This document shows, piece after piece, positions 2,121 through 18,103 of a stretch of DNA of 46,533 nucleotides (its first letter is position 1; every line of letters starts with the position of its first letter). A model generated the notes under the pieces. It saw only the letters and a list, made by a program, of their open reading frames with translations, made no database searches and was not told the DNA's origin. A program made the position numbers and the translations under genes. Source of the DNA: Clostridia bacterium (GTDB taxonomy: Bacteria > Bacillota > Clostridia > Oscillospirales > CAG-272); NCBI GenBank assembly GCA_017456545.1, contig JAFTJE010000013.1, positions 1 to 46,533 on the forward strand. The letters run 5' to 3'.

Positions 2121-2191
2121 AGAGCACTCGACTACCGACAGAAAAAAAGCAAGAAAACACATTGTTTGATACTGTACGATGCAAAAATATA

Positions 2192-2220: not shown

Positions 2221-2227
2221 TATAAAA

Positions 2228-2290: not shown

Positions 2291-2300
2291 AGGAAATTTT

Positions 2301-3662
2301 ATGGTTAGGAAAAAGAAATTCACGCTTTCGACCACGCAGATCATATTGCTCAGCTTTCTCGTGACCATTCTCGTGGGAAGCGGACTTTTAGCATTGCCGA
2401 TCAGTTCCGCAAGCGGTGAAGCCGTGTCGTATCTTGACGCTCTTTTCACGGCAACCACCTCCACCTGCGTAACGGGACTCGTTACACTTCCCACAGTATC
2501 TACTTGGAGTGTGTTCGGTCAGATCGTCATACTGCTTCTGATACAGGTCGGAGGACTTGGTATTATCACCATTATGTCGGGGCTGATGCTTCTTCTCAAT
2601 AGAAAAATGGGCATTGGCGACCGATTGCTTATTCAGGATGCCTTCAATCTCAATACAATGTCGGGACTTGCAAAATTCGTTAAGAACGTGCTGTTCGGAA
2701 CGCTGATTATCGAAGGCATCGGCGCTCTGCTATATATGCTCGTGTTTGTTCCCGAATTTGGGGCTGTGGGCATCTGGATATCGCTGTTCAATTCGGTTTC
2801 AGCCTTTTGTAACGCAGGTATTGACATAATAGCGGAAAACAGTCTTTGCAATTACGCCACAAATCCCTTGATAAACATCGTCACCTCCGCACTCATCATT
2901 CTCGGTGGACTTGGATATATCGTATGGTGGGACGTGCTTCGTGTGGTCAAGAGCCGTTCGCCAAAGAACCGCAAAATATTCAGGCATTTGACATTACACT
3001 CAAAGATTGCGATTACCGTTACCGCAGGACTCATTCTCGTCGGTGCTCTCCTCATTTTTGTTTTTGAATATTCAAATCCCTTGACCATCGGAGAAATGTC
3101 CTTGTTTGATAAAATTCAGGTATCATTCTTCCAATCGATCACCACGAGAACGGCTGGCTTTGCTTCTGTTTCGCAAGAGAATTTGACAAACGCCTCCGCT
3201 GCCGTATCTATTATCTTGATGCTGATCGGTGGCTCACCCGTTGGAACGGCAGGCGGTATGAAAACGGTTACGATTGCTGTTCTCATTTGTTCGGCATTCG
3301 CAACGATAAGGAACAAGAACAGCGCAACCCTGTTTGGTCGCCGCGTTTCCGAAGAATCGATAAAAAAGGCGGTTGCTGTTGTTGTAATTTTCCTTACGAT
3401 GTGTGCCACCTCAACCGTGCTTTTGATGGCAACAAGCAATGCTTCTGCCATTGATGCAGTCTATGAAACGGTCAGCGCGACGGCAACAGTCGGTCTTTCA
3501 AGAAACTTAACGGCAACGCTGAACACCTTTGGAAAGCTAATTATCATCGTAACGATGTATTTCGGCAGAGTCGGTCCAATATCGTTGGCTGTCGCTCTCG
3601 GAAGAAAAAATGAGAGTCAGAATGTCATTTCCGAGCCGACGGAAGATATCAGTATAGGATAA
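2301..3662 (+). CDS. ktrB: KtrB/TrkH-type potassium channel subunit of the Ktr uptake system
   Basis: The 453-residue membrane protein imports K+ (Na+-assisted in KtrB) and pairs with KtrA. It shows the fourfold membrane-pore-membrane pattern of the TrkH/KtrB superfamily, with pore-loop filter segments ATTSTCVTGL (about residues 51-60), SAFCNAGID, SITTRTAGFAS and SATATVGLSRN. Length is normal for KtrB. The ATG at 2301 was chosen over an upstream TTG because AGAGGA lies seven bases before it and the residues before it are poor. ktrA follows 12 bases downstream. The pair has its own promoter and a leader that could attenuate expression. No c-di-AMP (ydaO-type) riboswitch motif is recognisable upstream. 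Confidence 0.93.
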   Translation: MVRKKKFTLSTTQIILLSFLVTILVGSGLLALPISSASGEAVSYLDALFTATTSTCVTGLVTLPTVSTWSVFGQIVILLLIQVGGLGIITIMSGLMLLLNRKMGIGDRLLIQDAFNLNTMSGLAKFVKNVLFGTLIIEGIGALLYMLVFVPEFGAVGIWISLFNSVSAFCNAGIDIIAENSLCNYATNPLINIVTSALIILGGLGYIVWWDVLRVVKSRSPKNRKIFRHLTLHSKIAITVTAGLILVGALLIFVFEYSNPLTIGEMSLFDKIQVSFFQSITTRTAGFASVSQENLTNASAAVSIILMLIGGSPVGTAGGMKTVTIAVLICSAFATIRNKNSATLFGRRVSEESIKKAVAVVVIFLTMCATSTVLLMATSNASAIDAVYETVSATATVGLSRNLTATLNTFGKLIIIVTMYFGRVGPISLAVALGRKNESQNVISEPTEDISIG

Positions 3663-3674
3663 AGGAGAACATCA

Positions 3675-4325
3675 ATGAAAGCAAAAAAAACATACGCAGT
3701 CTTCGGACTTGGAAGATACGGTACAGCTGTGGCAAAAGAGCTTGTAGAGAACGGTATGGAGGTCATAGCAATTGACACCAATCAAAAGATCGTCAACGAT
3801 GCGGTGGCATACCTGCCCGTATGCAAGTGCGCCGACGTGACAGATGCGGAGGTCGTCTCCCGTCTTGGAATCGGCAACATTGATACCGTTATCGTTTGTA
3901 TGGCGAGCAATCTTGAAGCGAGCGTTATGGCGATAACTCTTTGCAAGGAGGCAGGAGTTAAGACTGTTATCGCAAAATGTGCAAACGAGATGCACCAAAA
4001 GATATTGCTTCGTGTGGGCGCGGATCAGGTGGTATTTCCCGAGAATGAGTCGGGAATACGCCTTGCCAAGAACCTCTTAAGCTCCGGATTTATTGATATG
4101 ATCTCTCTGTCAAAAGACGTGTCTATGGTTGAGATCGATGTGAAGGATGAGTGGTGCGGCAAGAACTTAATTGAATTAAATCTCCGTAAAAAATACGGAT
4201 TCAATATCGTTGCTGTTAAGAAGGGCGATAAGGTCAACGTAAATATCAATCCCGAACAGGTGCTTGATGCAGAAACGACGCTGATTGTTATTGCAAATAC
4301 TGCAAAATTGGGGAAATTGAAATAA
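3675..4325 (+). CDS. ktrA: KtrA/TrkA-family RCK regulatory subunit of potassium uptake
   Basis: The 216-residue cytosolic protein gates KtrB. The N-terminal RCK_N domain has the Rossmann signature FGLGRYGTAVAKEL and an acidic residue after the second strand (AIDTN), typical for ATP/ADP or NAD binding. The C-terminal half (from about residue 135, SMVEIDVKDEW onward) is the RCK_C domain, which in several KtrA proteins binds c-di-AMP. AAAGGAG lies just before the ATG, and the gene follows ktrB by 12 bases. A hairpin terminator lies at 4451-4490. Confidence 0.92.
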   Translation: MKAKKTYAVFGLGRYGTAVAKELVENGMEVIAIDTNQKIVNDAVAYLPVCKCADVTDAEVVSRLGIGNIDTVIVCMASNLEASVMAITLCKEAGVKTVIAKCANEMHQKILLRVGADQVVFPENESGIRLAKNLLSSGFIDMISLSKDVSMVEIDVKDEWCGKNLIELNLRKKYGFNIVAVKKGDKVNVNINPEQVLDAETTLIVIANTAKLGKLK

Positions 4326-4450
4326 ACCATCAAATTCCAATTTTTTGATCAATATTGGTGAGCTGATTCTGAAAAGAGATCCTTTTCTTTATGCTCATCT
4401 ACGACTTGTCAATTTTCCTGACAAGCATTGCTTTTGTGGACACAAACGCA

Positions 4451-4490
4451 AGATACGGCATACATCCGAAAGAGGCATGCCGTATCTTTA
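4451..4490 (+). terminator. Terminator after ktrBA
   Basis: Eleven-base perfect stem AGATACGGCAT (4451-4461) with ATGCCGTATCT (4477-4487), followed by TTTA. A weaker hairpin (TTGTCA/TGACAA, about 4416-4433) precedes it. Confidence 0.75.
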
Positions 4491-4493
4491 TAA

Positions 4494-4537
4494 AACTGTC
4501 CTTTAGGGTACCGCTCTATCGAGTAGTCCCTTTTTTG
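4494..4537 (-). repeat. Right, inverted copy of the repeat bracketing ktrBA
   Basis: On the minus strand the segment reads AAAAGGGACTACTCG and ends AAAGGACAGTTTTA. It matches 2076-2120 with one gap and about seven mismatches. Outer AGGG/CCCT pairing is intact, and the inner stem has one mismatch. The copies face each other across 2.4 kb that holds only ktrBA. Confidence 0.6.
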
Positions 4538-4591
4538 TTTTCAGTTTAGAGCTTTTTTGTTATATGCTAAAAAATGTTCAAATAGTGTTAT

Positions 4592-6085
4592 TTAATCACC
4601 TTTAGCTTCAACAATGATTTCTGCCCGTTCAACATTTATACTGTCCGAATCCAGCATATAATTTATTCTGTCAATAACGGCTATTGAAAGTGTGTTTGTT
4701 CCATTCTTAATAAGGCTTCCGTCAACCTTTGCTTTAATTTCTAAAATAGGTGTAGGATTTAAGTTTAAGCAGTTAGCCGTATATATTGCAGGTTGTGGCT
4801 CAGGCCAAAAAATCTGCTGATCCGTATAGGAATAATCCTCTGAAAAGTTCTCTATCAGAGCCCCATTTAAGAATATCTTAAATTTATCGCAAAATGATTT
4901 TGCATTGGTTATAACAAATCTTACCTCTCCTTGTCTATCATAAAAATCTCCGCACACATCAATTTTTACATCCAGCGGCGTTTCATCGTTTGGAATAGGT
5001 GCAGGAAGCGGTGCAAAAGCATTATTTCCTCCACAGCCCGTTAAAAACGGATAACCTCCTCTTCGTTCTGCAACATATCTTAATGCTTTATCAACAGAAT
5101 TTTCCTCACTCAAAATATTATAAAAATCGGCATAATCCCGTCCAAGGCAATTCATTATTTCTTCAGGAGGAAGCAATTTAGTAAGCTCTTCTTGAGGGGA
5201 TGGTGCAAAGTTAAATGCAACGATTCCATCAGTACCCTTATGAGTCCAATTAGATAACATTCCACGATAGAAATCACTTGTTTGATTATGGCTTGCGTCC
5301 GATAAGTGCCAAGCATCCCAACAGGTATAGACTAAAGTTCCTGTACCCTCTGTGATTTTTTTATACCAATCAATATCAGGGTTAATCGTTCTTGAGCCTC
5401 CAATAACAAAGTCTACCAAGTTATTTTTAGCCCACTTTTCAACATCAAAGCCATCTGCATGACACGCTTCCCCATTCTCGGGAAGCTTCGCACCAACTAC
5501 AACTTGACGCCCCAGCTTATTCATATTATCTTTTAGCTTACTTATAAACTCCGTAGCACATTCTCTGTATTCCCATTGCTTACCTACGGGAAGACAAGGA
5601 AGGTGTCTTAAAAAGTCTATACAAATTCCGTCAAACGAGTATTCGGTCATAATTTTCGTTATGTAATCAAGCTTAAATTTCTGAAGGTCCGGCGATGCTA
5701 AATTCCATAACCCTTCTTGCCACCAGGTTTTAATGACCCAATCTCTATGCTTTTGCTTTATTTCATTTCTGCCGAATTCCAAATTTAACTCTACCTCAGA
5801 AAAACGGTGATGATAATATGCTTTAATTCCACGCTTATGGCACTCATCTATAATGCGTCCCATAATATTTATGCCCTTATCTTGAAATTTCTCATATATT
5901 CCGGTATTGTTACAGGAGCATTCCTGTGGGATAAAGCAATGCCCTTCCCAAAGAATCTCATCTACCCTTACGCCCTTCTTATCGACACAGTAAAAAAGCC
6001 ATTCAATAAGCTTATCTTCCGGGATATTTGCAAGCTCTCCCGTGTAAGGATCCATTTGAATTATAAACCTTGCTTGTTGTTTCAA
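4592..6085 (-). CDS. TIM-barrel glycoside hydrolase-like protein (GHL10/DUF187-like)
   Basis: About 497 residues. The order RFIIQMDPYTGEL, EILWEGHCF, ECHKRGIKAYYHHRF, LWNLASPDLQKF and FDGICIDFLRH follows the strands of a TIM barrel of the kind found in glycosidase-like family 10/DUF187 proteins; the conserved Asp in GICIDFLRH sits where such barrels carry a catalytic residue. The last ~130 residues form a beta-sandwich-like tail. A longer frame reaches 6160 but overlaps the MFS gene. TTG at 6083-6085 is preferred because AAAGGAG lies nine bases before it and the spacing to the MFS stop becomes 20 bases. No signal peptide. It sits downstream of an MFS carrier, so a role in using an imported glycoside is inferred. 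Confidence 0.7.
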   Translation of the reverse strand: MKQQARFIIQMDPYTGELANIPEDKLIEWLFYCVDKKGVRVDEILWEGHCFIPQECSCNNTGIYEKFQDKGINIMGRIIDECHKRGIKAYYHHRFSEVELNLEFGRNEIKQKHRDWVIKTWWQEGLWNLASPDLQKFKLDYITKIMTEYSFDGICIDFLRHLPCLPVGKQWEYRECATEFISKLKDNMNKLGRQVVVGAKLPENGEACHADGFDVEKWAKNNLVDFVIGGSRTINPDIDWYKKITEGTGTLVYTCWDAWHLSDASHNQTSDFYRGMLSNWTHKGTDGIVAFNFAPSPQEELTKLLPPEEIMNCLGRDYADFYNILSEENSVDKALRYVAERRGGYPFLTGCGGNNAFAPLPAPIPNDETPLDVKIDVCGDFYDRQGEVRFVITNAKSFCDKFKIFLNGALIENFSEDYSYTDQQIFWPEPQPAIYTANCLNLNPTPILEIKAKVDGSLIKNGTNTLSIAVIDRINYMLDSDSINVERAEIIVEAKGD

Positions 6086-6105
6086 TTGCTTTTGCTCCTT
6101 TTTAA

Positions 6106-7299
6106 TTAATTTTGCTTGCCAATTGTCTGTTTTGCAACAGCGTAATATGTTATGCCACAAACAAATAGCATCCCCGTTGCGAAAATCAATACACCTGTAT
6201 ATCCGATTACGTTTTTAAGCGGTGTTATAAGTAAGGTTGCAACCGCTTGTGCTCCCGTAAAGATGAGCATACGGATAGATGTATATGAACCGATTTGTTC
6301 TTTGGGAATAATTTCAGTAATAATGACTGGAATCGCTGTATCGGTAACGAACCTAAAAAAGGAAGCTATCGCAAAACAACAGAAAAAACCGATGGTCCCA
6401 AGCTCAAGGGAAAACGGGAAGCTTACGCATACGCCCAGTGTAGCAATTAAAAGTAAATTCTTCGTCGAAAGCTTTTTATATGTAAACGCAAAAAACACAT
6501 TACCTGCGAAAGCCGCTATTTGTAAAATTACATTCACATAGGAGGAAGTCGTTTCGTTCAAAATACTCATAGAAATGGCAATTGTAGCGATCACATTAAA
6601 TATCCCTACTGATAATCCGCGTACAAAATTCGGGATCAATAATACATATGTATTCTTATTCTTAAGCACCGATGCAACACCGTTTCTTTCCCGGTCCTCT
6701 TTGTTCTTTTCCACATTTTTCACTCGCATAGATGCACACACGATACTTGTTAGGATAAAACATACTATAGCAATCACGAAAAAAGCTGATGTTGTTTTCA
6801 TATACGAGAATTTTGATAAAAAAATAGAATAAGCGAGTGACACTAAAAAAGATACGCCCCCTGCGATTGCCGTACTAATACCCGTCATTTTTCCATAATC
6901 CTTCATATCAATCGTATAATATGGCAAGCAGTATGAAAGAATAGTATACAAGCCGACGCCTACATAGGATATGCCTGCGACGATAAAAACGGCGATCACA
7001 TATCCGTGTTTTATCAATTCGGGGTTTATTGCACCTATTAAAAATACAGCGGTTAATACGCTTAGCGATAAACAGGATATACTCGTAACCATTTTTACAT
7101 ATTTTATTTTGTCTGATAAAAAGGTTAGAACGAGCATCATAGCTACTTGCATAATCTGCATTAACGAATTCAGAACATAAACCTGTTCTGCCGAGAATCC
7201 CGCTTGAATCAAAAATGTTTGCATAATCGTTCCCGTGCAAAGCATGAATCCTACATTATAAATCGTCGTATAAATACAATATTTTTTTATGTTTGACAT
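6106..7299 (-). CDS. MFS transporter, probably for a sugar or glycoside
   Basis: The 397-residue protein has about twelve hydrophobic segments. Its start TIYNVGFMLCTGTIMQTFLI is like the GPH/MFS-type carriers of Firmicutes, and a basic loop (CASMRVKNVEKNKEDRER) separates the halves. Typical loop motifs are FLSDKIKYVK after helix 2 and FTYKKLSTKN in the second half. Length is normal. GAGGG lies before the ATG, and a strong promoter lies at 7348-7376. It is followed 20 bases later by the glycosidase-like gene, so co-transport and processing of a sugar is likely, but no substrate can be assigned. Confidence 0.8.
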   Translation of the reverse strand: MSNIKKYCIYTTIYNVGFMLCTGTIMQTFLIQAGFSAEQVYVLNSLMQIMQVAMMLVLTFLSDKIKYVKMVTSISCLSLSVLTAVFLIGAINPELIKHGYVIAVFIVAGISYVGVGLYTILSYCLPYYTIDMKDYGKMTGISTAIAGGVSFLVSLAYSIFLSKFSYMKTTSAFFVIAIVCFILTSIVCASMRVKNVEKNKEDRERNGVASVLKNKNTYVLLIPNFVRGLSVGIFNVIATIAISMSILNETTSSYVNVILQIAAFAGNVFFAFTYKKLSTKNLLLIATLGVCVSFPFSLELGTIGFFCCFAIASFFRFVTDTAIPVIITEIIPKEQIGSYTSIRMLIFTGAQAVATLLITPLKNVIGYTGVLIFATGMLFVCGITYYAVAKQTIGKQN

Positions 7300-7347
7300 A
7301 TATCCCTCAAATTAAGAACGGAATTTTTATCTAAATATCTCTATTTG

Positions 7348-7376
7348 ATTATACCACGAAAAGTATCACGCTTCAA
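7348..7376 (-). promoter_or_regulatory. Sigma-A promoter for the MFS-glycosidase operon
   Basis: Minus-strand TTGAAG (7371-7376), 17-base spacer, TATAAT (7348-7353). The flanks (GTGG before and CAA after the -10) resemble the GH43 promoter. Confidence 0.8.
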
Positions 7377-7505
7377 CACATTAGTTCAAATTTGCACCCT
7401 TAAAATGAAACTCCAAATTTCAAAAAATGCCATTATTGAGGTCATTTTGGTATGAGATTTTACATTTTTCTCAAAAATTTCGCCTCGCACAAAAAAAGTC
7501 CCGAA

Positions 7506-7556
7506 AGTCCTTTTGTCATAATGGTTTGTCGCACTTTTATAATGATGTTCAACCGG
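7506..7556 (-). repeat. Degenerate intergenic segment shared with 1950-2000
   Basis: Minus-strand ATAAAAGTGCGACAAACC matches the segment upstream of the GH43 gene. A 64-codon minus-strand frame (7386-7580) spans it but has no ribosome site and no recognisable domain, so I treat the stretch as a remnant. The rest of 7377-7582 shows nothing supportable. Confidence 0.4.
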
Positions 7557-7582
7557 GGTTGGTCCACTGCAAATAGACAAAG

Positions 7583-7626
7583 AATAATCCGAACATTCTA
7601 TTACCCGAAGAGTAGTTCGGATTATT
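7583..7626. other. Long inverted repeat between the MFS promoter and the catalase
   Basis: AATAATCCGAAC (7583-7594) pairs perfectly with GTTCGGATTATT (7615-7626). On the plus strand it is followed by TGTTTTATTTT. No plus-strand gene precedes it, so it may be a backup terminator or a remnant. Confidence 0.5.
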
Positions 7627-7660
7627 TGTTTTATTTTATTATACTATTTTAATAGCAATA

Positions 7661-7702
7661 AATGAAAAGAGCCTCCACAAAATAATCCTGCCGGAGGCTC
7701 TT
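7661..7702 (-). terminator. Terminator after the manganese catalase gene
   Basis: Stem AAGAGCCTCC (7667-7676) with GGAGGCTCTT (7693-7702), then TTTTCATTT on the minus strand, 25 bases past the stop. Confidence 0.75.
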
Positions 7703-7726
7703 ATGCTGTTTTTTAATGTGGAGATT

Positions 7727-8389
7727 TCACTTAAATGACGGTGCGTGGGTCTCGCCAGTTGAAAAGGTATCCGGTCCCGGGTTCGACATGGAAAAATACA
7801 TTTTTGCAGCCTTTGTAGTGCCGAAATCACGGTTTGAGCCTGTTTCCTGTACCTTGTTGAAGGCATCACGGAACATCTGATTATGGGCCTCCTCTCTATT
7901 GAGCAGAAAATCAATAGTCTCTCTTACCTTTTTATCCTCAATCTGACGGTAGAGGTATTCATAAACCACCTTAGCTCTCTGCTCCGATGCAATGTTGGAT
8001 AGCAAATCAGCACATAAATCTCCTGTAACAGTAACATAGTCTGCAGTCCAGGAGTATCCTGAGGAATTTATAAGTCCGGGGTTGAGTCCAAGCAAAACAT
8101 GTGTCTGTACCTCGCCTGCCTGCACCTTTGCAGCGTCCACATCGTGACCGTTAAGGAGATTGATGGTCTGTGCCACCATTTCCATGTGACCAAGCTCCTC
8201 CGCAGCGATATCAAGAAAAAGGTCCTTTATCTGGGGGTCCTTAATTCTGAAGCTCTGTGACATATACTGCATAGCTGCCTTAAGCTCACCGTTTCCTCCT
8301 CCCAGCTGTTCCTGAAGCAAAACTGCATACTGAGGATTTGGTCTTTCCACCTCTACGGGGTGAAATAACTGTTTTTCGTGTTTGAACAT
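7727..8389 (-). CDS. Manganese catalase-family protein (CotJC-like)
   Basis: The 220-residue protein has the four-helix-bundle pattern of non-haem manganese catalases: Glu in NGELKAAMQYM, the EELGHMEM metal-binding motif, ASEQRAKVVYEYL and NREEAHNQMF. Such proteins dismutate hydrogen peroxide, and relatives (CotJC) are part of the spore coat. ATG at 8389 was chosen over an upstream frame extension because CGGAGG lies 12 bases before it. It is the last gene of a minus-strand group with the Rieske oxidoreductase (80-base gap) and a small helical protein, which points to peroxide defence. A second, broken member of the family lies at the right edge of the window. Confidence 0.87.
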   Translation of the reverse strand: MFKHEKQLFHPVEVERPNPQYAVLLQEQLGGGNGELKAAMQYMSQSFRIKDPQIKDLFLDIAAEELGHMEMVAQTINLLNGHDVDAAKVQAGEVQTHVLLGLNPGLINSSGYSWTADYVTVTGDLCADLLSNIASEQRAKVVYEYLYRQIEDKKVRETIDFLLNREEAHNQMFRDAFNKVQETGSNRDFGTTKAAKMYFSMSNPGPDTFSTGETHAPSFK

Positions 8390-8469
8390 AATAAATATTA
8401 ACCTCCGATTATAGATTAATACTATTATTTCCCAAAACAATGGTACATATGCCTCGATTTTTTATGGCT

Positions 8470-9783
8470 CTACATTTTTTTATCGTCTGTAGCAGGATTA
8501 TCAATCAGCTGACCGTCTCCTGTAAAGCGTGAGCCGTGGCAGGGACAATCCCAGCTGTGCTCGGCACGGTTATATTTAAGTGCACATCCCATATGAGGGC
8601 ATCTTGGAGTGGTGGGAGTGAGAAGTCCTATTATGGATTCAAGGGCGTTGACAGCAAGCTGAGGACGAAGTATACTGCGTGAGGGTGAAAACACATCAGT
8701 GTATTTATTCGGTCTGTCTGTTACGAGGTCAAAAAGAATGCTTGATGCAACCATAGCGTTTGTTATGCCCCATTTATTGAATCCCGTCGCCACAAACATA
8801 TCGGGAGTATGCCTTGAATACTGTCCAATGTAGGGAACGCTATCTAAGGTCATACAGTCCTGTGTTGCCCATTTACCAACAATTTCAGCATTCTTGAAAT
8901 GCTCACTCGCAAATTTTTCAAGCTCCTGCCAACAGCCACCCTGCTTACCTGTACGGTGTCCTCCCCCTCCAAGAAGCAAAAGGTCACCGTAGCCTCGGAG
9001 GGATAAGCCTCTGTCGGATTCATCCACATACATACCCTTTATATTCCGTGCACCCCTCAGTGCAAGGACATATGAACGGTGCTGATAGAGCTTCAACGGA
9101 TATAAGCCATGCTTATTGATAATGGGAAAATGGGTTGCCACAATAAGCCTTTTGTAGGTGATATCTCCGTGGTCTGTGATTGCTCTGCCCGGCTTTAGCT
9201 CCACCACCTTAGTGTGCTCGATAATTGGCAGATCCTTTGCCACGGTGTATAAGAATTTCAAGGGATGAAGCTGTGCCTGATTTTTGACGCATACAGCACC
9301 TGCAACAGGAAACGGAAGCTCACCGGCGTATGAAAGCTCAGCCTTTATGCCCAAAAGATTCAGTGCTTTTATTTCCTTTTCTATCTTTTTTATACTGTTA
9401 AGAGAATAAACATAGGAGCTTGCCCTTTCATAATCACAGTCTATATTACTGCAGAGGTCGGCGTATTCCTTACATGCATTTATCTGTGCATCTGCATAAA
9501 GCCGTGCTTTATCCTTACCGAGCTGTCTCAACAGCTTATCGTATATTAAGCCGTGACACAGGGTTATTTTTGCCGTAGTATTTTTTGTAATTCCACCACA
9601 AATCTCGTTAGCCTCCGCAAGCATACAATCTACTCCTGCATTTCTTAGCTTATACGCACACAAAATTCCCGTAATGCCACCACCGATTATCAGAATATCG
9701 GTGCTTTTGTTACCCTCTAACGAAGGAAAGTGTATGCTTTTTTCTGTTTCTGTCCAGATGGAATTTATAATGTTATCACTCAT
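8470..9783 (-). CDS. FAD-dependent oxidoreductase with C-terminal Rieske [2Fe-2S] domain
   Basis: The 437-residue protein begins with a DAO-type FAD site (DILIIGGGITGILCAYKL, about residues 29-46) and a second FAD contact MFVATGFNKWGIT near residue 340. The last 45 residues form a Rieske domain: CPHMGC and CPCHGSRF supply the Cys/His pairs for a [2Fe-2S] cluster. This fusion is known in Firmicutes as a Rieske 2Fe-2S protein with a DadA-like FAD domain; its physiological substrate is unknown. Start and upstream stop overlap as ATGA, so translation is coupled to the 60-residue gene at 9780. Gene order with manganese catalase suggests a redox or oxidative-stress role. Confidence 0.88.
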   Translation of the reverse strand: MSDNIINSIWTETEKSIHFPSLEGNKSTDILIIGGGITGILCAYKLRNAGVDCMLAEANEICGGITKNTTAKITLCHGLIYDKLLRQLGKDKARLYADAQINACKEYADLCSNIDCDYERASSYVYSLNSIKKIEKEIKALNLLGIKAELSYAGELPFPVAGAVCVKNQAQLHPLKFLYTVAKDLPIIEHTKVVELKPGRAITDHGDITYKRLIVATHFPIINKHGLYPLKLYQHRSYVLALRGARNIKGMYVDESDRGLSLRGYGDLLLLGGGGHRTGKQGGCWQELEKFASEHFKNAEIVGKWATQDCMTLDSVPYIGQYSRHTPDMFVATGFNKWGITNAMVASSILFDLVTDRPNKYTDVFSPSRSILRPQLAVNALESIIGLLTPTTPRCPHMGCALKYNRAEHSWDCPCHGSRFTGDGQLIDNPATDDKKM

Positions 9784-11384: not shown

Positions 11385-12503
11385 TTATGTGGCGTCATAT
11401 TCTCCGTATTCACATCCTACATTCCGGCATATAACCTCGTCAATCAGTCTCCTTCCACGGTAGAGCTTGACTGTTCCTCTTCCGTTTCCACCGTTCCACA
11501 GGCGATTATGCAGCTTCTTGCCGTTCGGTGCTTCATAATTTACAAGAAGCATATCCTTTTTTTCACACACTATATCCGTCACCATTCGGTTACGCCAGGT
11601 TTTTTGCTCCACATGCCAGATTATTTGTGTATCCGTCTCCCGACAGTTGAATTTAGTGCGTGTAAGGGTCCAAAACTTTGAAAAGTTAAATTCGTAGCAC
11701 TTACCCTCGTACCAATAAGCAGATAAGAGCTTTCTCTTAAGTGCTATGGGTCCTATCTTCGGACATCCGCCTCCTATATCAAATACACTGTCGGTCAGCC
11801 TTTTACCCGTAACCTTGCTTGTCAGATTGTTGGAGGACAGCCATACCCAGGGTGATGTAAAATCCTTACCCCAGTTTTTGTCTGCATATCCGTAGCAGGT
11901 CTCCGGGCTTACAGTGTATCTTTCACCGTTCCATATAACCTCACCGGAATAAGCTGTTTTCATTCCCTCTGCGTGCCAGAACATCTCAAAGAGTTGGAGC
12001 TTACGAAACAGCCACCCTGCTCCGTATCCCACATTAAATGCAGTCCTTTTATCAATGGTCAAGTTCCATGACATTTCTCCATTCTGACACATCCATTCAG
12101 GATGGTCATCGGCATTTTCTATCTTAATATGTCCGTGCATTTCCGTTTCTGTGCAGTAGCAGTCCTCTGCCTTAACAAAAAAGGGAACACCATATGATAC
12201 CTCTATTTTATTCCAACCGAAAAATCTATGTAGCTGTGAGGCGTCCTCTCCCCAAGAGCCTGCCTTTACCATCAGGTAGGATGGCTTAACGCCATTTTCC
12301 TTATTTTCCGGGAGCTGTCCGTATACGGGCTCGTCTCCACCACTCCTCGGATTGCAGAGAAAGTACTCAATAAAAAACGGTCTTTCCTCCCCTGTCCTGT
12401 CGTTTATTGCAGTAAAGGAATGCCACCACCAATCGTAGCCTCGCTTTGCCTGTCCACCGAAAAGCTGACATGCATTGCGTGAAATTCTATGCTTGTTAAA
12501 CAT
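11385..12503 (-). CDS. Tocopherol cyclase-like / CrtC-like beta-barrel protein
   Basis: The 372-residue protein is rich in Trp and Tyr and consists mainly of beta strands. GGQAKRGYDWWWHSFT near residues 17-32, FFIEYFLCNP, GWLFRKLQLFEMFWHAEG and CYGYADKNWGKDF..PWVWLSS match the layout of tocopherol cyclase-like proteins (and the related CrtC/AttH lipocalin-like group). In plants the family closes the chromanol ring; anaerobe members are uncharacterised, so a role on a lipid or isoprenoid is only a suggestion. There is no signal peptide. GAGGAG precedes the ATG. First gene of a two-gene operon with the amidohydrolase. Confidence 0.6.
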   Translation of the reverse strand: MFNKHRISRNACQLFGGQAKRGYDWWWHSFTAINDRTGEERPFFIEYFLCNPRSGGDEPVYGQLPENKENGVKPSYLMVKAGSWGEDASQLHRFFGWNKIEVSYGVPFFVKAEDCYCTETEMHGHIKIENADDHPEWMCQNGEMSWNLTIDKRTAFNVGYGAGWLFRKLQLFEMFWHAEGMKTAYSGEVIWNGERYTVSPETCYGYADKNWGKDFTSPWVWLSSNNLTSKVTGKRLTDSVFDIGGGCPKIGPIALKRKLLSAYWYEGKCYEFNFSKFWTLTRTKFNCRETDTQIIWHVEQKTWRNRMVTDIVCEKKDMLLVNYEAPNGKKLHNRLWNGGNGRGTVKLYRGRRLIDEVICRNVGCEYGEYDAT

Positions 12504-12666: not shown

Positions 12667-13098
12667 TTAAAGCTTTAATACATCTGCATTTGTAATAAGA
12701 TGGAAGCCTGCATTCTGAAGAGCCGATTCAGCAATATCATCATCCTCTACTCTGAATACAACATATGCGTGCTTTTCGGTACGGGTCATAAATGCATAGA
12801 GATACTCCATATTTATTCCTGCCTTGTCAAGAACGCCGAGTGCCTCGGTAAGCTTACCCGGTGCATCTCCGATTTTAACTCCCACAACATTTGTAACCTT
12901 AATAAGATATCCCTTATCGGTAAGAGTCTTCTTCGCTGTTTCAACATCGTTTACAATAAGACGCAAAATTCCGAAATCCTCTGTTTCAGCTATGGAAAGT
13001 GCTCTTATATTGATATTATTGCTTGCAAGTGTATCTGTAATGGAGACAAGTGCTCCCTGCTTGTTTTCAACAAAAACTGTTAACTGCTGTATTGCCAT
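12667..13098 (-). CDS. Tandem ACT-domain protein of the ligase operon
   Basis: The 143-residue protein is two ACT domains in a row: IQQLTVFVENKQGALVSITD (residues 3-22) and VVGVKIGDAPGKLTEALGVL (about residues 71-90), each starting with the strand-Gly-helix pattern that binds amino acids. ATG at 13098 was chosen over an upstream start because GGGAG lies just before it. It follows the phenylacetate-CoA ligase by 16 bases; this gene pair is common in anaerobes, often with indolepyruvate ferredoxin oxidoreductase. It probably senses an aromatic amino acid and adjusts the ligase, which is inference. Confidence 0.88.
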   Translation of the reverse strand: MAIQQLTVFVENKQGALVSITDTLASNNINIRALSIAETEDFGILRLIVNDVETAKKTLTDKGYLIKVTNVVGVKIGDAPGKLTEALGVLDKAGINMEYLYAFMTRTEKHAYVVFRVEDDDIAESALQNAGFHLITNADVLKL

Positions 13099-13114: not shown

Positions 13115-14422
13115 TTATACCAATTTACGCTTATCAATTACACGGACAGCCTTACCCTCACTGCGGACAATGGTCTTAGGTGCAACAAGATGTACGGCAG
13201 GATTGATGCCGAGCATAATCTTCATTGCATTAGCAAGAGATTTTTCCATAGCGAGAATTTCACTTACCTTATCTGTGAACTTCTCGGGAGTCATCTCTAC
13301 ATTAACATCAAAGGTATCATTGTTATTTACTCTGTCTACTACTATCTGATAGTTGGGCTCATAGCCTTCCTTCAAAAGAACTGTCTCTATCTGGCTGGGG
13401 AACACATTAACTCCACGGATAATAAGCATATCATCAGTTCTGCCCATGGGCTTAGCCATCTTAATAAGAGTTCTTCCACAGGAGCACTTCTTACGGGAAA
13501 GAACGCAGATATCACGGGTACGGTAACGAAGAAGGGGAAATGCCTCCTTATCAAGAGATGTAAATACAAGCTCTCCCTTCTCCCCCTCGGGAAGAACCTC
13601 TCCTGTATCGGGGTTAATGATTTCTGCTAAGAAGTGGTCCTCATTGATATGCATACCTGTCTGCTCAGAGCATTCAAAGGCCACGCCGGGGCCGGAGGTT
13701 TCTGTAAGACCGTATATATCATACGCCTTAATACCGAGAGTTGACTCTATACCTCTTCTCATTTCATCTGTCCAGGGCTCAGCACCGAAAATACCTGCCT
13801 TCAAGGGAATATCCTCAGGCTTGTATCCCTGCTCCTTAAGGCTCTCTCCGATATATGCAGCATAGGAGGGAGTGCAGCAAAGGATTGTAGCACTTAAGTC
13901 TGTCATAAACTGTATCTGTCTCTCTGTATTACCTGATGACATAGGAAGGGTCAGGCATCCTACACGGTGGGAGCCACCGTTAAGACCGGGACCACCTGTG
14001 AAAAGACCGTAGCCGTATGCAACCTGGCAAACATCCTTGTTTGTGCCACCTGCTGCAACAATTGCTCTTGCACAGCAATCCTCCCAAAGGTCAACATCGT
14101 GCTGAGTATAGAATGCAACTACTCTTCTGCCTGTTGTTCCGGAGGTTGACTGAATACGAACGCACTCGTCAAGAGGCTTAGCCAAAAGTCCGTAGGGATA
14201 TGCGTCACGAAGGTCTGCCTTTGTAAGGAAGGGAAGCTTATGTAAATCCTCTATTCCGTGGATGTCCTCGGGCTTAACTCCCTTTTTATCCATAAGGTCA
14301 CGGTAATATGCAACATTTTCATAAACATGCTTTACCTGCTTAACAAGCTTTTCCGATTGGAGCTTTTTCATCTCCTCCACGGGCATTGTTTCAATTTCTT
14401 TCTGATAGTAATTCTGTGCCAT
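13115..14422 (-). CDS. paaK: Phenylacetate (aryl-acetate)-CoA ligase
   Basis: The 435-residue AMP-forming ligase activates phenylacetate-like acids with ATP and CoA. It has the ATP loop QSTSGTTGRR (residues 91-100), the DIYGLTETSGPGVAFEC adenylate motif and GRTDDMLIIRGVNVFPSQIE of the hinge and C-terminal domain. A CxCG pair (KKCSCGR) is typical for the clostridial subgroup. ATG 14422 was chosen because AAAGGA has eight-base spacing to it, while the ATG nine bases earlier is too close. The T-box leader upstream has a Phe-like specifier, so the gene should be induced when Phe-tRNA is uncharged. This favours aryl-acetate use for Phe synthesis rather than Phe breakdown. Confidence 0.92.
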   Translation of the reverse strand: MAQNYYQKEIETMPVEEMKKLQSEKLVKQVKHVYENVAYYRDLMDKKGVKPEDIHGIEDLHKLPFLTKADLRDAYPYGLLAKPLDECVRIQSTSGTTGRRVVAFYTQHDVDLWEDCCARAIVAAGGTNKDVCQVAYGYGLFTGGPGLNGGSHRVGCLTLPMSSGNTERQIQFMTDLSATILCCTPSYAAYIGESLKEQGYKPEDIPLKAGIFGAEPWTDEMRRGIESTLGIKAYDIYGLTETSGPGVAFECSEQTGMHINEDHFLAEIINPDTGEVLPEGEKGELVFTSLDKEAFPLLRYRTRDICVLSRKKCSCGRTLIKMAKPMGRTDDMLIIRGVNVFPSQIETVLLKEGYEPNYQIVVDRVNNNDTFDVNVEMTPEKFTDKVSEILAMEKSLANAMKIMLGINPAVHLVAPKTIVRSEGKAVRVIDKRKLV

Positions 14423-14504
14423 TTTAATCATCCTTTCTTAGTATTACGACCCGACACCTTGCTGTTCGTAATATCATTTGGTTTTAGCTCGGATTGTGTA
14501 TGGA

Positions 14505-14790
14505 GAAACAAAAATCGCCCTCCGCATTCCGAAAGAATACAGAGGACGAGAAATATAATCCCGTGGTACCACCTCAGTTCGCCACTATCTCACGACAGCG
14601 ACCTTTTCAGGTACTTATATACCTTAGTTCTGTTACGGGAACTCCCGTTGCATCCTACTTAAGACTAAGCTTGTTCAGTGCACTGCTTGCAAAATGAATT
14701 CAATAAGGCTGTCCTCTTTGCCTCGCACCACCCGGCAACTCTCTCCAGATTCTTTCCATATCTACTTGTTTCTGCTCTGACGCATTTATG
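14505..14790 (-). promoter_or_regulatory. T-box leader (specifier TTC, Phe) upstream of paaK-ACT
   Basis: On the minus strand the order is stem I (AGAGAGTTGCC...GGTGGTGCGAGGC), specifier loop, T-box GGTGGTACCACGGG (about 14561-14574) and terminator stem (14535-14549 with 14515-14529) followed by TTTTT. The specifier side reads GAA-TTC-A (TTC at 14696-14698), opposite AAGTAGA on the 5' strand. The companion T-box has GAA-TAC-A at the same place, which supports the frame. The antiterminator bulge TGGT fits a tRNA with discriminator A. Uncharged tRNA should allow read-through. Confidence 0.9.
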
Positions 14791-14795
14791 TAAGT

Positions 14796-14824
14796 ATTGT
14801 ATCACTTGTGGACAAATATGTCAA
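14796..14824 (-). promoter_or_regulatory. Sigma-A promoter of the paaK T-box transcript
   Basis: Minus-strand TTGACA (14819-14824), 17-base spacer, TACAAT (14796-14801). Confidence 0.85.
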
Positions 14825-14882
14825 TAGTTTTTGTGAAAAAATGCTAATTAATTATTCACACTTATGAATAATTTTTAGCTTT

Positions 14883-16439
14883 TTATTCTTCGTTATAGCA
14901 CTCAAAGATTTTATCTATTCTATCGTTATCCTTAGCTGTTTTTCTTGTAAAGTAGCTTACAACAGGTACTACAACAAGGGATACTGCCATTGCACAAACA
15001 CCCATTTCGGGAGACTTCGCCGCAGCTGAGGAAAAGCCGGATGCAATAGATATAACAAGAGTAGCTATACCTACTGTGGCAAGACCGGATATCATACCTG
15101 CGTAGGCACCGATTTTTGTGATTTTCTTTGAAAAAAGACCCCAGATGTAAGGACCGATAAAGCAACCGGAAACAACTCCCCATGAGAAGGACATAAGGCT
15201 TACTATAATCGGAATATTCATTGTTGCAAAAATAAATGAGCATACAATAAATGCAAGACAAAGTATTCTTGTAAGCTTCATCTGCTTTTCAGGCTTGATT
15301 TCCTTCCTGCTAACAGCAGGGATAAGATCAACAGCTACCGCAGATGCAGATGTAAGAACCACTGCCTCAAGAGTTGACATTGATGCCGAAAGCAAAAGTA
15401 TGATTATAACTGCAAAAAGTATAAGTCCGATAATACTGTTACCCAGAACCTCAATAAGCACTGTAGGAATTACGGAGTCAACTCCTCCCTCGGGAAGCTT
15501 ACCGTCAAGGATAAGTCTTGATGAGCTGCCAACAAGGTATGCACCACAGCCGATAATAAGGCAGAATGCAGTTGAAATAATGGTTCCACGCTTAATGGAA
15601 GCAGTATCCTTTACTCCGTAGAACTTTCCTATCATCTGAGGAAGTCCCCATGTACCGAAGCTGGTTAGCATAATGTTCACACAAAGGAACTTAAAGGATG
15701 AGCCTCCAAAGATACTTGATAGCTGATCTCCCGTTACAGGGTTGGTATCCCCCTCTATGGGTCTGAAATTCTTAAGGTTTTCAAAAAGGCCCGTAATTCC
15801 TCCCACATTATCATGGCAGAGCACTGCAATAACGAGACAAATAACGCCAACTATCATAATGATTCCCTGTACAAGGTCTGCATAAGCAGAAGCTATATAT
15901 CCTCCTGCCACTAAATAGATTGCGGTAAGACAAGCGATAATCAGCATCCATACCCATGTCTCCACACTTGGAAATACTGCACTGAACAATGAACCAAGTC
16001 CCTTGTATACTGCCGCAGAGTAAGGAACAAGGAATACAAAGATAATTATCGCCGCAAATATCTTCATATTCTTCGAATCGTATCTTTTTTCAAAATATTC
16101 AGGCATTGTTTTTGTGCCTAATTTTCTTGTGATTTTTCTGGTTCTGTCAGCAAACAGAAGCCAGGAAAGCAGACAACCGAGAACAGCGTTACCTATACCT
16201 ATCCAAATTGCACCGATACCTATGTTCCAGCCGTGCTGTCCTGCGTATCCGACAAAAACAACCGCCGAGAAATATGCTGTTCCGTATGCAAATGCAGTGA
16301 CCCATGCATTAACCTTTCTGCCACCGATAAGGAACCCGTCAAGGGTCTTTGATTTACTGTAGCTTTTAACACCGATAAGCATCATAGCTGCAGCATAGAT
16401 ACATAATGCTACGATTATGTAGATTTGTGCATTTTCCAT
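14883..16439 (-). CDS. Sodium:solute symporter (SSS family), T-box controlled
   Basis: The 518-residue protein has about 13 membrane spans of the SSS fold. Family marks are FLIGGRKVNAWVTAFAYGTAYFSA near residues 36-59, the loop TMPEYFEKRY, YLVAGGYIASAYADLVQG and SASMSTLEAVVLTSASAVAVD at the second Na+-site region. Members import sugars, proline, pantothenate, acetate or phenylacetate with Na+. A Tyr-type T-box in its leader points to tyrosine or a Tyr precursor such as 4-hydroxyphenylacetate as substrate; this is inference. It ends 59 bases before the next promoter and is transcribed separately from paaK. GGGGG precedes the ATG. Confidence 0.88.
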   Translation of the reverse strand: MENAQIYIIVALCIYAAAMMLIGVKSYSKSKTLDGFLIGGRKVNAWVTAFAYGTAYFSAVVFVGYAGQHGWNIGIGAIWIGIGNAVLGCLLSWLLFADRTRKITRKLGTKTMPEYFEKRYDSKNMKIFAAIIIFVFLVPYSAAVYKGLGSLFSAVFPSVETWVWMLIIACLTAIYLVAGGYIASAYADLVQGIIMIVGVICLVIAVLCHDNVGGITGLFENLKNFRPIEGDTNPVTGDQLSSIFGGSSFKFLCVNIMLTSFGTWGLPQMIGKFYGVKDTASIKRGTIISTAFCLIIGCGAYLVGSSSRLILDGKLPEGGVDSVIPTVLIEVLGNSIIGLILFAVIIILLLSASMSTLEAVVLTSASAVAVDLIPAVSRKEIKPEKQMKLTRILCLAFIVCSFIFATMNIPIIVSLMSFSWGVVSGCFIGPYIWGLFSKKITKIGAYAGMISGLATVGIATLVISIASGFSSAAAKSPEMGVCAMAVSLVVVPVVSYFTRKTAKDNDRIDKIFECYNEE

Positions 16440-16477
16440 ATGCTACCCCCTTCTTGAATCACGGAGGTACAACCTAA

Positions 16478-16777
16478 AAAAATACGCCCTCCGTATTCCT
16501 GATAAGAATACAGAGGACGAGATATCCCGTGGTACCACCTCAATTTACCGCATGCTCACGCACACGGCCTTTTCAAGTGTCTAACAACACTCCTGTTCTG
16601 TTACGGGAACTCCCGTTGTAATCTACACACCCCAAAGGGGCTTCGGTACACAGCTCCTGAAATGTATTCTCTGTCTTACTAAGCTACCGTCTCGCACCAA
16701 CCGACGGCTCTCTGCAAGCACTTCTGACAGATACTTCTTTTCAATCATCGCATTTGACACTTTATCGAAATAAAGTA
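16478..16777 (-). promoter_or_regulatory. T-box leader (specifier TAC, Tyr) upstream of the symporter
   Basis: Minus-strand stem I contains the classic AGAGAGCCGTCGG...TTGGTGCGAGACGG. The lower stem TGAAA/TTTCA and upper CTGTC/GACAG enclose a specifier loop AAGTAT opposite AGAATACA, reading TAC at 16664-16666. T-box GGTGGTACCACGGG lies at about 16525-16538. Terminator arms are 16506-16518 and 16486-16498, followed by a T-run. Pairing is clean, so the Tyr call is firmer than the Phe call in the sister leader. Confidence 0.92.
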
Positions 16778-16782
16778 TCATC

Positions 16783-16811
16783 ATTGTAGCACTTTTGATA
16801 TGGGTTGTCAA
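16783..16811 (-). promoter_or_regulatory. Sigma-A promoter of the symporter T-box transcript
   Basis: Minus-strand TTGACA (16806-16811), 17-base spacer, TACAAT (16783-16788). Confidence 0.85.
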
Positions 16812-16924
16812 TAGGTTTTTACAATTTTTTGTCAAATTTTTATTCGCTTTTCATCAAAAATATTCACAAAAATATTCATGTATCCACAATATAGATTTTT
16901 CACAGTATTATTTAATATTCTCAC

Positions 16925-16953
16925 TTGAAATTTGTATGCAAATGTGATACAAT
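16925..16953 (+). promoter_or_regulatory. Sigma-A promoter of the GH27 operon
   Basis: TTGAAA (16925-16930), 17-base spacer, TACAAT (16948-16953), 35 bases before the GH27 start. Confidence 0.82.
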
Positions 16954-16987
16954 CATATCGACTACATATAATACAAGGAGAGTACCT

Positions 16988-18103
16988 ATGCTTGCAAAAA
17001 AACCTCCTATGGGTTGGAACTCATGGAATACATTTACAAACAAAATTGACGAAAAGCTTATTATGGAGACTGCCGATGCAATGGTGGACAACGGTCTTCT
17101 TGATGCCGGATATGAATATCTGGTTATTGATGACTGTTGGAGTGAGAAGCAGCGCGACGAAAACGGAATGCTTGTAGCCGATAAGGAAAAATTCCCACAC
17201 GGTATTAAATATGTTGCAGACTATGTTCACTCCAAGGGACTTAAATTCGGTATGTATTCATGCTGCGGCACTCTTACCTGTGCAGGATATCCGGGTAGCT
17301 TCGGTCACGAATTTGACGATGCTAAATACTTTGCCGAGGTGGGAGTTGATTTTCTAAAGTATGATAACTGCTACAAGACCAAGATGGAAAATTATCTTGC
17401 ATACATGCGAATGTCTGTAGCTTTGCGTTCCTGTGGCAGAGAAATTCTTTTTTCTGCCTGCAATTGGGGAACAGATAATGTTCACAGCTGGGCAAGGGCA
17501 GTTGGAGCGCATATGTACCGTTCCACCTTTGATATTACCGACACCTTTGAATCTATAAAAGAGCTCTCCGAAAGTCAAAAGGATAAGCTTGTTTACTCTG
17601 CACCCGGATGTTATAATGACATCGATATGCTTGTAACAGGGCTTCATGGAGAGGGTTCTATCGGCTTCGGTCACGGATGTACCGAGGCAAATTACAGATA
17701 TCACTTTGCATTCTGGTGTCTTGCATCCTCACCTCTTATGATAGGATGCGATGTTCGTAACCTTTCAAAGGAAAACAAGGCACTTCTTACAAATCCTCTA
17801 CTTATCAGAATAAATCAGGATGAAGAGGGCCGTCCTCCAATTTTCTTTGGAGATTATGAGTACCATGCATTTAAGGTACTGTCAAATAACGAATATGCTA
17901 TTGGATTTTTCAATCCCCTTGACAAAGAACGCAAAATAACCTTCAATTTCCATGACCTCGGTCTTATGCCGAATGACAGATGCGTATTGAAGATTACCGA
18001 CGCATTTACAGGTGAGGATCTCGGTGTGTACAGAGATTACTTCAGTGCCCATGTTGGCTCAGGCGATGCGAAAATGTTTATCGCCACTCCTGTATTACTA
18101 TGA
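16988..18103 (+). CDS. GH27 alpha-galactosidase
   Basis: The 371-residue enzyme removes terminal alpha-galactose (or alpha-N-acetylgalactosamine). It starts with the family signature KKPPMGWNSWN; the catalytic nucleophile is Asp126 in FLKYDNCY and the acid/base Asp182 in YRSTFDITDTF. GYEYLVIDDCW and LASSPLMIGCD are further GH27 landmarks. A short C-terminal beta domain begins near residue 290. No signal peptide, so it should act on imported oligosaccharides. The ATG at 16988 follows AAGGAGA by five bases, and the upstream frame extension overlaps the promoter. Its stop overlaps a zinc-ribbon ORF by four bases. Confidence 0.93.
   Translation: MLAKKPPMGWNSWNTFTNKIDEKLIMETADAMVDNGLLDAGYEYLVIDDCWSEKQRDENGMLVADKEKFPHGIKYVADYVHSKGLKFGMYSCCGTLTCAGYPGSFGHEFDDAKYFAEVGVDFLKYDNCYKTKMENYLAYMRMSVALRSCGREILFSACNWGTDNVHSWARAVGAHMYRSTFDITDTFESIKELSESQKDKLVYSAPGCYNDIDMLVTGLHGEGSIGFGHGCTEANYRYHFAFWCLASSPLMIGCDVRNLSKENKALLTNPLLIRINQDEEGRPPIFFGDYEYHAFKVLSNNEYAIGFFNPLDKERKITFNFHDLGLMPNDRCVLKITDAFTGEDLGVYRDYFSAHVGSGDAKMFIATPVLL

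Follow-up and report, generated by a model that had tools for sequence, protein, structure and literature searches.

Why would genes for an aryl-CoA ligase and a sodium symporter sit behind leaders of the kind that sense uncharged phenylalanine and tyrosine tRNAs? We addressed this question for a 46,533-nucleotide stretch of a Clostridia bacterium genome (contig JAFTJE010000013.1; the window), where a symporter gene and the paaK1-ACT1 pair lie in tandem on the reverse strand (Table 1). A sequence-only reading had proposed that two adjacent, full T-box leaders place these genes in a starvation-induced aryl-acetate salvage route. Both leaders matched RF00230 across all 219 model positions and scored above its gathering score of 93, at 120.4 bits for the symporter leader and 94.0 bits for the paaK leader, which exceeds the threshold by just 1 bit; alongside this marginal score, related leaders precede paaK in many genomes. 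The proposed specifiers, TTC (Phe) and TAC (Tyr), were borne out by direct reading of the loops, GAA-TTC-A (14698-14696) and GAA-TAC-A (16666-16664), and, in a covariance-model alignment with 107 rows, by the codons at a single fixed column. This genome's own pheST leader carries the loop GAA-TTC-C. With class I T-box riboswitches (RF00230) the two leaders share the AGAGAG/GGTG-type motifs of Stem I, the GAA-NNN-A specifier loop, the TGG(T)ACC bulge of the T-box and the exclusion between antiterminator and terminator, but they differ in their targets, which are predicted aryl-acetate assimilation genes. The gene range first proposed, 13115..16777, holds for paaK and the symporter, whereas the ACT gene lies outside it, at 12667-13098. 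We note that paaK1 could start at the ATG at 14422 (MAQNYY...) instead of at 14431.

Table 1. Features of the two T-box-headed units, in window coordinates
Feature	Position	Strand	Evidence
Promoter-like site TTGACA-17-TACAAT, symporter transcript	16783..16811	-	Consensus match 11/12
Tyr T-box leader, symporter gene	16506..16763 (Rfam span 16510-16757)	-	120.4 bits; wider span from model R1, trained on this leader among others
Specifier codon TAC (Tyr), flanks GAA...A	16664..16666	-	Direct reading and alignment column
Intrinsic terminator, symporter leader; overlaps 3' arm of antiterminator	16485..16519	-	Terminator scan and folding
SSS-family sodium:solute symporter, 518 aa; putative aryl-acetate importer	14883..16439	-	PF00474, 180.6 bits; operon homologue; tree
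Promoter-like site TTGACA-17-TACAAT, paaK-ACT transcript	14796..14824	-	Consensus match 11/12
Phe T-box leader, paaK1-ACT1	14535..14795 (Rfam span 14539-14789)	-	94.0 bits; wider span from model R1
Specifier codon TTC (Phe), flanks GAA...A	14696..14698	-	Direct reading and alignment column
Intrinsic terminator, paaK leader	14515..14549	-	Terminator scan and folding
paaK1, PaaK-like aryl-CoA ligase (AMP-forming), 438 aa (435 from 14422)	13115..14431	-	PF14535 and PF00501
ACT1, paired ACT-domain protein, 143 aa, 3' of paaK1	12667..13098	-	PF19571, 86.7 bits

Each leader has a promoter-like site upstream and, at its 3' end, a hairpin of 16 pairs followed by a T tail. Promoter-like sites in 14400-17000 numbered 13, compared to 6.5 ± 2.4 in shuffled sequences, and terminator-like sites numbered 8, compared to 1.6 ± 1.4. 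Folding energies were -24.5 kcal/mol (z -7.6) and -23.1 kcal/mol (z -7.7) for the two terminators, while the antiterminator pieces showed no gain over shuffles (z about -0.1), in keeping with a helix that depends on the tRNA. From the overlap read in the sequence, terminator and antiterminator are mutually exclusive in both leaders. Across 28 leaders, 25 of 32 predicted pairs showed a compensatory double change that preserved pairing in at least one leader, the pairs having been predicted on that same 28-leader alignment. Since each leader has its own promoter-like site and terminator, the symporter and paaK-ACT likely form two separate transcripts, as had been claimed. ACT1 is likely co-transcribed with paaK1, which an ACT gene follows in many relatives, and its product is possibly a feedback sensor.

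We surveyed specifiers across related leaders with the covariance model R1, built from 28 leaders chosen in this analysis; because these include both window leaders, its ranking favours leaders of this type. R1 was used instead of an early regular expression for the T-box core, which gave at least one false match (L097). Forty matches were taken between G068:C19 and G281:C173, leaving out G000, G043 and one contig-end match in G127, and the leader alignment drew on 100 sources, with L136-L142, L145, L148, L158, L160, L190, L224 and L225 omitted as duplicate, short or off-topic (L224, metN). Two identical leaders were removed before counting. Among the matches listed, the specifier was TTC in 49/49 distinct leaders examined from paaK-first units, TAC in 30/30 from SSS-first units, and TAC in all 7 leaders examined from units that begin with a second ligase. 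Nearly all paaK and SSS leaders had the standard flank (exceptions: L071, L181, L185, L204, L209 and L234). In five of six tyrS leaders the fixed column read ATA instead of TAC, with GAAA-TAC found one base on, so this column can slip by one base in leaders with other loops. The genes tyrS, metN and those of TrpX-like ABC systems were named by eye, without family searches.

What the two genes encode was then assessed from family models and relatives. The symporter scored 180.6 bits with PF00474 (gathering score 22.8), which places it in the SSS family, a family that includes phenylacetate permeases. Its TIGR00813 score of 176.9 is below the cut-off of 184, and it is not a PutP-type sodium/proline symporter, with 187.3 bits against the 515.5 required by TIGR02121. 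In G302 a Tyr T-box operon, SSS-ligase-iorA-iorB-paaK-ACT, opens with a symporter gene whose product shares 80% identity with the window symporter, and symporters from the same tree occur within ior-paaK operons. We infer that the window symporter imports an aryl acetate, for which phenylacetate and 4-hydroxyphenylacetate are candidates, together with Na+. PaaK1 is a PaaK-like adenylate-forming ligase by PF00501 (52.2 bits) and PF14535 (101.6 bits), both above cut-off, and is assigned only that broadly, as its TIGR02155 score of 520.2 bits is under the equivalog cut-off of 646.3. This shortfall would fit an enzyme for some other acid, such as one of the cinnamate type or a branched one, with the Phe signal serving a different pathway, and PaaK relatives in the PDB do include enzymes for other acids, such as 2-hydroxyisobutyryl-CoA synthetase (6hdw). 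We consider such a substrate quite improbable: the nearest solved enzymes are phenylacetate-CoA ligases (4r1l, 2y27), and proteins nearly identical to PaaK1 are encoded directly 3' of iorB in L073, L079, L081, L082, L084 and L085.

The ferredoxin oxidoreductase that a salvage route would call for was found elsewhere in the genome, in the string paaK2-iorA-iorB-ACT2-amidohydrolase-aminotransferase. IorA and IorB (contig C13) reached 706.4 bits with TIGR03336 (cut-off 650.9) and 260.5 bits with NF005325 (cut-off 230), respectively, and the aminotransferase reached 562.3 bits (cut-off 376). Genes for uptake, ligation, IorAB and transamination are all present in this one genome (window and L021). 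No T-box was found at its ior operon with Rfam (E up to 1) or R1. The sequence-only reading had also called for a check on missing pheA and tyrA, which turned out to be present: both lie in the string pheA-aroB-aroC-aroE/K-aroQ-aroA-tyrA-aroF, near which no T-box was found. Several members of this string, pheA and tyrA among them, scored below equivalog cut-offs; the genome encodes one PDT-domain protein. An explanation of salvage by absent pheA/tyrA was rejected on the presence of this protein and this string. As de novo genes for Phe and Tyr are present, the route would be salvage beside de novo synthesis.

In relatives, T-boxes stand directly on ior operons. A Tyr T-box heads them in at least eight genomes (G043, G038, G033, G302, G398, G194, G187 and G022) and a Phe T-box at at least two loci (G030, L120), one arrangement being T-box(Tyr)-ligase-SSS-iorA-iorB-paaK-ACT-aminotransferase. 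The operons of G043 and G038 end in an aminotransferase gene, with identities of ∼50% either to the aminotransferase of this genome or between the two; G194 has a weaker match (24%). In L076, L080 and L087 the gene order is ligase-iorA-iorB-[Phe T-box]-paaK1-ACT, and in G067 a Trp T-box precedes a trpB-SSS-paaK2-iorA-iorB-ACT string. Further support for salvage comes from G414, where the same leader type, specific for Phe, precedes aroF-pheA (L178); in G030 and L120, aroF follows immediately on the ior operon that a Phe T-box heads. These genes carry the same Phe signal and are surely biosynthetic. No T-box was found at the iorAB of this genome, in five of six same-genus ior operons read or at seven further ior-paaK loci searched, so the core enzyme is not generally under T-box control.

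The distribution of the symporter bears on whether it might instead import Tyr or aromatic amino acids in general, leaving only paaK1-ACT1 to salvage. Across 96 genomes, 58 had both SSS and iorA, 3 SSS only, 3 iorA only and 32 neither; with one genome per genus (n = 62), the counts were 37, 0, 3 and 22. Of the genomes with the symporter and no iorA, G006 and G085 would fit an amino acid importer (the missing iorA of G014 is a contig break), as would the many SSS-first Tyr T-box units with no ior or paaK within 8.5 kb, and amino acid importers are commonly under T-box control. We nevertheless regard this alternative as unlikely, because symporter presence tracks iorA across genera, the same-tree symporters described above belong to ior-paaK operons, and in 18 of 29 same-genus genomes the symporter stands at the head of an ior operon that also contains a second paaK. 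Four of the 29 have the split form, with T-box paaK1/SSS away from iorAB, and seven lack iorA and paaK, among which G006 has SSS only.

Taken together, these data suggest that the symporter and paaK1-ACT1 units probably provide uptake and activation, respectively, in a biosynthetic aryl-acetate salvage route. Leaders, specifiers, terminators, genes and their linkage in relatives' T-box-headed operons are established by computation, and the salvage idea, drawn from two leaders alone, is supported by further genome evidence in IorAB, the aminotransferase and the relatives' operons. Uncharged tRNA-Phe would pair with the TTC specifier and stabilise the antiterminator, so that RNA polymerase enters paaK1-ACT1, and uncharged tRNA-Tyr would act likewise on the symporter leader; genes for uptake and activation of phenylacetate-type acids thus appear to be switched on in this gut bacterium only under Phe or Tyr shortage. 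Na+-coupled uptake by the symporter would supply an aryl acetate, which PaaK1 (and PaaK2) would convert to aryl-acetyl-CoA; IorAB would form the aryl pyruvate reductively with ferredoxin and CO2, and the aminotransferase would yield Phe (or Tyr), supplementing the intact set of de novo genes, with ACT feedback possibly acting in the route.

The opposite direction, in which IorAB and PaaK would ferment Phe and Tyr to aryl acetates and the T-boxes would be incidental, seems highly improbable. IOR is used oxidatively in peptide fermenters, and in the available text of PMC13285125 the Bacteroides thetaiotaomicron IOR takes part in conversion of Phe to phenylacetate, so an IOR enzyme can run that way. 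T-box induction, however, signals starvation for the very amino acid that would be degraded, and leader type and operons are shared with aroF and aroF-pheA. The same text holds that AMP-forming ligases favour CoA-ester formation and argues that such a ligase beside IOR indicates synthesis.

The paaK-ACT unit also looks horizontally mobile: in the compared genomes PaaK1 is 88-92% identical, compared to 51-57% for IorA. As a clock, IleRS gave 68% in G041 and 59% in G094, 32-35% in G045, G055, G059, G067, G068, G073 and G084, where it is apparently another IleRS type, and no match in G018; ThrS identities were erratic already within the genus, at 53% in G016 and 42% in G003. With IleRS only partly comparable and ThrS erratic, the case for transfer consists of the PaaK1-IorA contrast plus IleRS in two genomes.

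Parts and route were already known. Rumen bacteria form Phe from phenylacetate by reductive carboxylation (Allison 1965, as cited in PMC7356843), and a stimulating effect of phenylacetate on Ruminococcus albus is cited in PMC7201606. As far as the citing text goes, our system shares the predicted chemistry, and its relatives come mostly from ruminant gut metagenomes, but it adds named candidate genes and Phe/Tyr T-box control. A methanogen anabolic IOR (Tersteegen 1997, as cited in PMC13285125) has likewise been put forward as a reverse-running enzyme that serves amino acid synthesis, whereas here bacterial operons combine IorAB with an SSS symporter, AMP-forming ligase(s), ACT and T-box control. 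In Bacteroides, another phylum, IOR also adjoins an AMP-forming aryl-acetate ligase and a biosynthetic role is suggested, with no T-box mentioned in the available text (PMC13285125). The targets noted from a C. difficile T-box survey (PMC11477304, available text) do not include paaK or ior. The T-box link would be the new element: the literature searched yielded no report of one to aryl-acetate salvage, and an earlier mention in the main T-box surveys is possible.

More tentatively, one IorAB-centred system may rebuild aromatic amino acids in gut Clostridia of this order, with the specifier on the feeder genes (Phe for paaK, Tyr for the symporter and second ligase, Trp for the G067 string) naming the amino acid served and the Phe T-box-paaK-ACT cassette spreading between families as a self-regulated plug-in. 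A sixty-year-old rumen pathway gains testable candidate genes, and the regulatory logic gives it a direction, that of synthesis. If true, the route would explain aryl-acetate cross-feeding among gut microbes, and T-box codons would serve to predict the substrates of transporters and ligases whose specificity is unknown.

The two T-box leaders that the sequence-only reading had placed in the window, one specific for Phe before the PaaK-like aryl-CoA ligase and ACT-domain genes (paaK1-ACT1) and one specific for Tyr before the gene of a sodium:solute symporter (SSS), are real; both have Rfam matches, with specifier loops reading GAA-TTC-A and GAA-TAC-A, respectively. With one tRNA, they are the only above-cut-off Rfam matches in the window. 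Both have a TTGACA-17-TACAAT site upstream and are closed by a hairpin of 16 pairs followed by a run of T, for which folding was also computed, and 25 of the 32 pairs of the T-box leader structure show a double-sided change somewhere. As judged from sequence, every T-box part is present in both. The window's own genome, G000 (1.9 Mb in 43 contigs, 90.55% complete), has ten T-boxes with E ≤ 0.001, eight of these above cut-off; target names and codons of the eight outside the window were assigned by eye. Since the named targets among these are ordinary starvation targets, paaK1 and the symporter belong with genes for biosynthesis, charging, and uptake. The top-scoring T-box in G000 (L011, 146.6 bits) lies close to a contig end, with an apparent Gly specifier (GGT) and no target identified.

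T-box leaders, gene strings, and other features in the window, in G000, and in relatives' genomes
Feature	Location	Strand	Specifier	Basis
T-box leader before symporter	window 16510-16757	(-)		Rfam
T-box leader before paaK1-ACT1	window 14539-14789	(-)		Rfam
Two overlapping genes	window 42850-45109	(-)		
Tocopherol-cyclase-like domain protein	window 11385-12503	(-)		PF14249
T-box, top-scoring	G000:C5 (L011) 734-939	(-)		
Amidohydro_2 protein	G000 (L021) 6504-7313	(-)		
paaK2-iorA-iorB-ACT2-amidohydrolase-aminotransferase	G000:C13	single strand		gene reading
T-box, target trpB	G000		TGG	
T-box, target aspS-gatAB	G000		AAC	
T-box, target pheST	G000		TTC	
T-box, target thrS	G000		ACC	
T-box, target leuA-ilv	G000		CTC	
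T-box, target ileS	G000		ATC	
T-box, target serS	G000		TCC	
T-box-second ligase-SSS-iorA-iorB-paaK-ACT-aminotransferase	G043, G038 (L135, L146)		Tyr	
T-box-SSS-iorA-iorB-paaK	G033 (L145; contig as long as that of L112)		Tyr	
T-box-SSS-ligase-iorA-iorB-paaK-ACT	G302, both ends of one contig		Tyr	
T-box-ligase-iorA-iorB-paaK-ACT	G398		Tyr	
T-box-SSS-ligase-iorA-iorB-paaK-ACT-(aminotransferase, 24% match)	G194		Tyr	
T-box-ligase-SSS-iorA-iorB-paaK-ACT	G187		Tyr	
T-box-SSS-paaK2-iorA-iorB-paaK'-ACT-..-aminotransferase	G022, same genus (L234)		Tyr, flank GAAG-TAC-A	
T-box-iorA-iorB-paaK-ACT, then aroF	G030, L120		Phe	
T-box-aroF-pheA	G414:C5 (L178) 1501-3257		Phe, TTC	
T-box-trpB-SSS-paaK2-iorA-iorB-ACT	G067:C5 (L134) 1375-9101	same strand	Trp, TGG	

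T-boxes of this class induce genes when the cognate tRNA is uncharged; PaaK1 and the symporter would therefore be needed at Phe or Tyr shortage, which points to synthesis. In the proposed route, PaaK would activate an aryl acetate with ATP and CoA, IorAB (indolepyruvate ferredoxin oxidoreductase) would carboxylate it reductively with reduced ferredoxin as donor, and transamination would be the final step; the ACT protein, going by its ACT domain alone, may add feedback. IorAB, which the sequence-only reading had proposed looking for in the genome, is present on contig C13, where IorA, IorB, and the aminotransferase exceed NCBIfam equivalog cut-offs and PaaK2 is 49% identical to PaaK1; an Amidohydro_2 protein is encoded between ACT2 and the aminotransferase. 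The absence of pheA/tyrA that it had also proposed checking was not borne out: contig C40 carries a de novo string from pheA through aroF. From the C13 and C40 strings, G000 thus has genes for both salvage and de novo routes. No T-box was found on the C13 ior operon with Rfam or with R1 (a covariance model built here from selected leaders, the window's included), and none at the C40 string, so that among the Phe/Tyr genes of G000 the T-boxes sit on pheST and the salvage feeders. Two overlapping window genes match a gltA-type NADPH-dependent glutamate synthase and a sulfide/dihydroorotate dehydrogenase-like FAD/NAD protein, the make-up of an Nfn transhydrogenase; the pair could affect ferredoxin supply to IorAB. 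The window also encodes a tocopherol-cyclase-like domain (PF14249, 35.9 bits versus a cut-off of 26.6), odd for an anaerobe.

The route and its parts are already known. One report describes arylacetate-CoA ligase activity for a Bacteroides AMP-forming ligase beside IOR, suggests biosynthesis, and also cites IOR-dependent phenylacetate formation from Phe (PMC13285125); another cites rumen Phe synthesis from phenylacetate (PMC7356843). A T-box regulon of aryl-acetate assimilation is apparently unreported in the literature searched, a scope outside which the main T-box surveys fall.

A genome scan gave 80 paaK loci in relatives; the titles of many of these name MAGs from the gut of goat, sheep, deer, cattle, buffalo, or another animal. 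The R1 search placed a T-box immediately upstream of paaK at 28 of these and at the operon head, with paaK further inside, at two more (L112 and L120). Thirty-one loci reach 88% identity or more and have upstream DNA; of these, 25 have a paaK T-box, and in the remaining six paaK lies directly behind iorB; three loci (L076, L080, and L087) show both arrangements, as ligase-iorA-iorB, Phe T-box, paaK1-ACT. A second AMP-dependent ligase of ∼546 aa, a candidate 4-hydroxyphenylacetate-CoA ligase, occurs in Tyr T-box units (L135, L146, L189, L195, L198, L201, L205, L214, L221, and L222). It was not found in the six same-genus genomes tested, G000 among them, and a Tyr arm there, if existing, would therefore need PaaK1 or PaaK2. 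The aroF-pheA leader at L178 scores 212 bits with the paaK-type model, which suggests an exchange of leaders between the de novo and the salvage genes. The Trp T-box string of G067 is possibly an indoleacetate-to-Trp version; ∼220 bases separate its trpB from SSS, and a joint transcript of the two is putative. At five further loci (L192, L193, L206, L210, and L215), Phe (three) or Tyr (two) T-boxes control ABC transporter genes that are TrpX-like by eye.

Specifier and first gene were compared in 105 distinct leaders; because the model used to select them had been trained on leaders of this kind, they show codon-gene pairing rather than unit frequency. The codon was TTC in 49/49 paaK-first leaders and in the single iorA-first and aroF-first leaders, and TAC in 30/30 SSS-first and 7/7 second-ligase-first leaders; TrpX-like ABC genes had TTC (three) or TAC (two), and trpB had TGG. 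For tyrS, the fixed column gave ATA five times, which becomes TAC with a one-base shift, and TAC once. The other five leaders gave CTC, CTG, and three gaps.

The symporter tree, with 51 distinct sequences and an outgroup, places the window symporter in a 10-row clade, fully supported by FastTree values only, together with the gene that heads the operon in G302 (80% identity); rows marked as lacking ior or paaK have none in the fetched DNA. Of 96 genomes, 58 have both SSS and iorA, 3 SSS only, 3 iorA only, and 32 neither (37, 0, 3, and 22 with one genome per genus, n = 62), and the corresponding counts for paaK and iorA are 58, 1, 3, and 34; Fisher values for this co-occurrence disregard relatedness. 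In one SSS-only genome, G014, a contig break cuts iorA.

Within the genus, 4 of 29 genomes (G000, G011, G018, and G020) are split, with paaK1 and SSS on one contig and iorA and paaK2 on another, and 18 are joined, with SSS and iorA grouped with two paaK genes (in G009 and G014 the group is broken and spread over two contigs); iorA and paaK are absent from seven, of which G006 has SSS alone. The ior region was read in all four split and six of the joined genomes, and only G022 among these six has a T-box. The feeders in this genus thus lie within the ior operon, where a T-box is mostly lacking, or outside it with T-boxes, and the window has the latter form.

PaaK1 of G000 is 88 to 92% identical to its counterparts in other genera (G045 and G041) and other families (G068, G073, G067, G094, and G059), with 51 to 57% identity for IorA in the same genome pairs; IleRS identity, in the comparable genomes, is 68% (G041) and 59% (G094). 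ThrS was unusable as a molecular clock. The PaaK1, IorA, and IleRS values fit transfer of a T-box-paaK-ACT unit between families. Substrates, flux, and tRNA response are predicted; the T-box aryl-acetate finding is itself real, and operon structure in relatives supports its interpretation as starvation-induced salvage.
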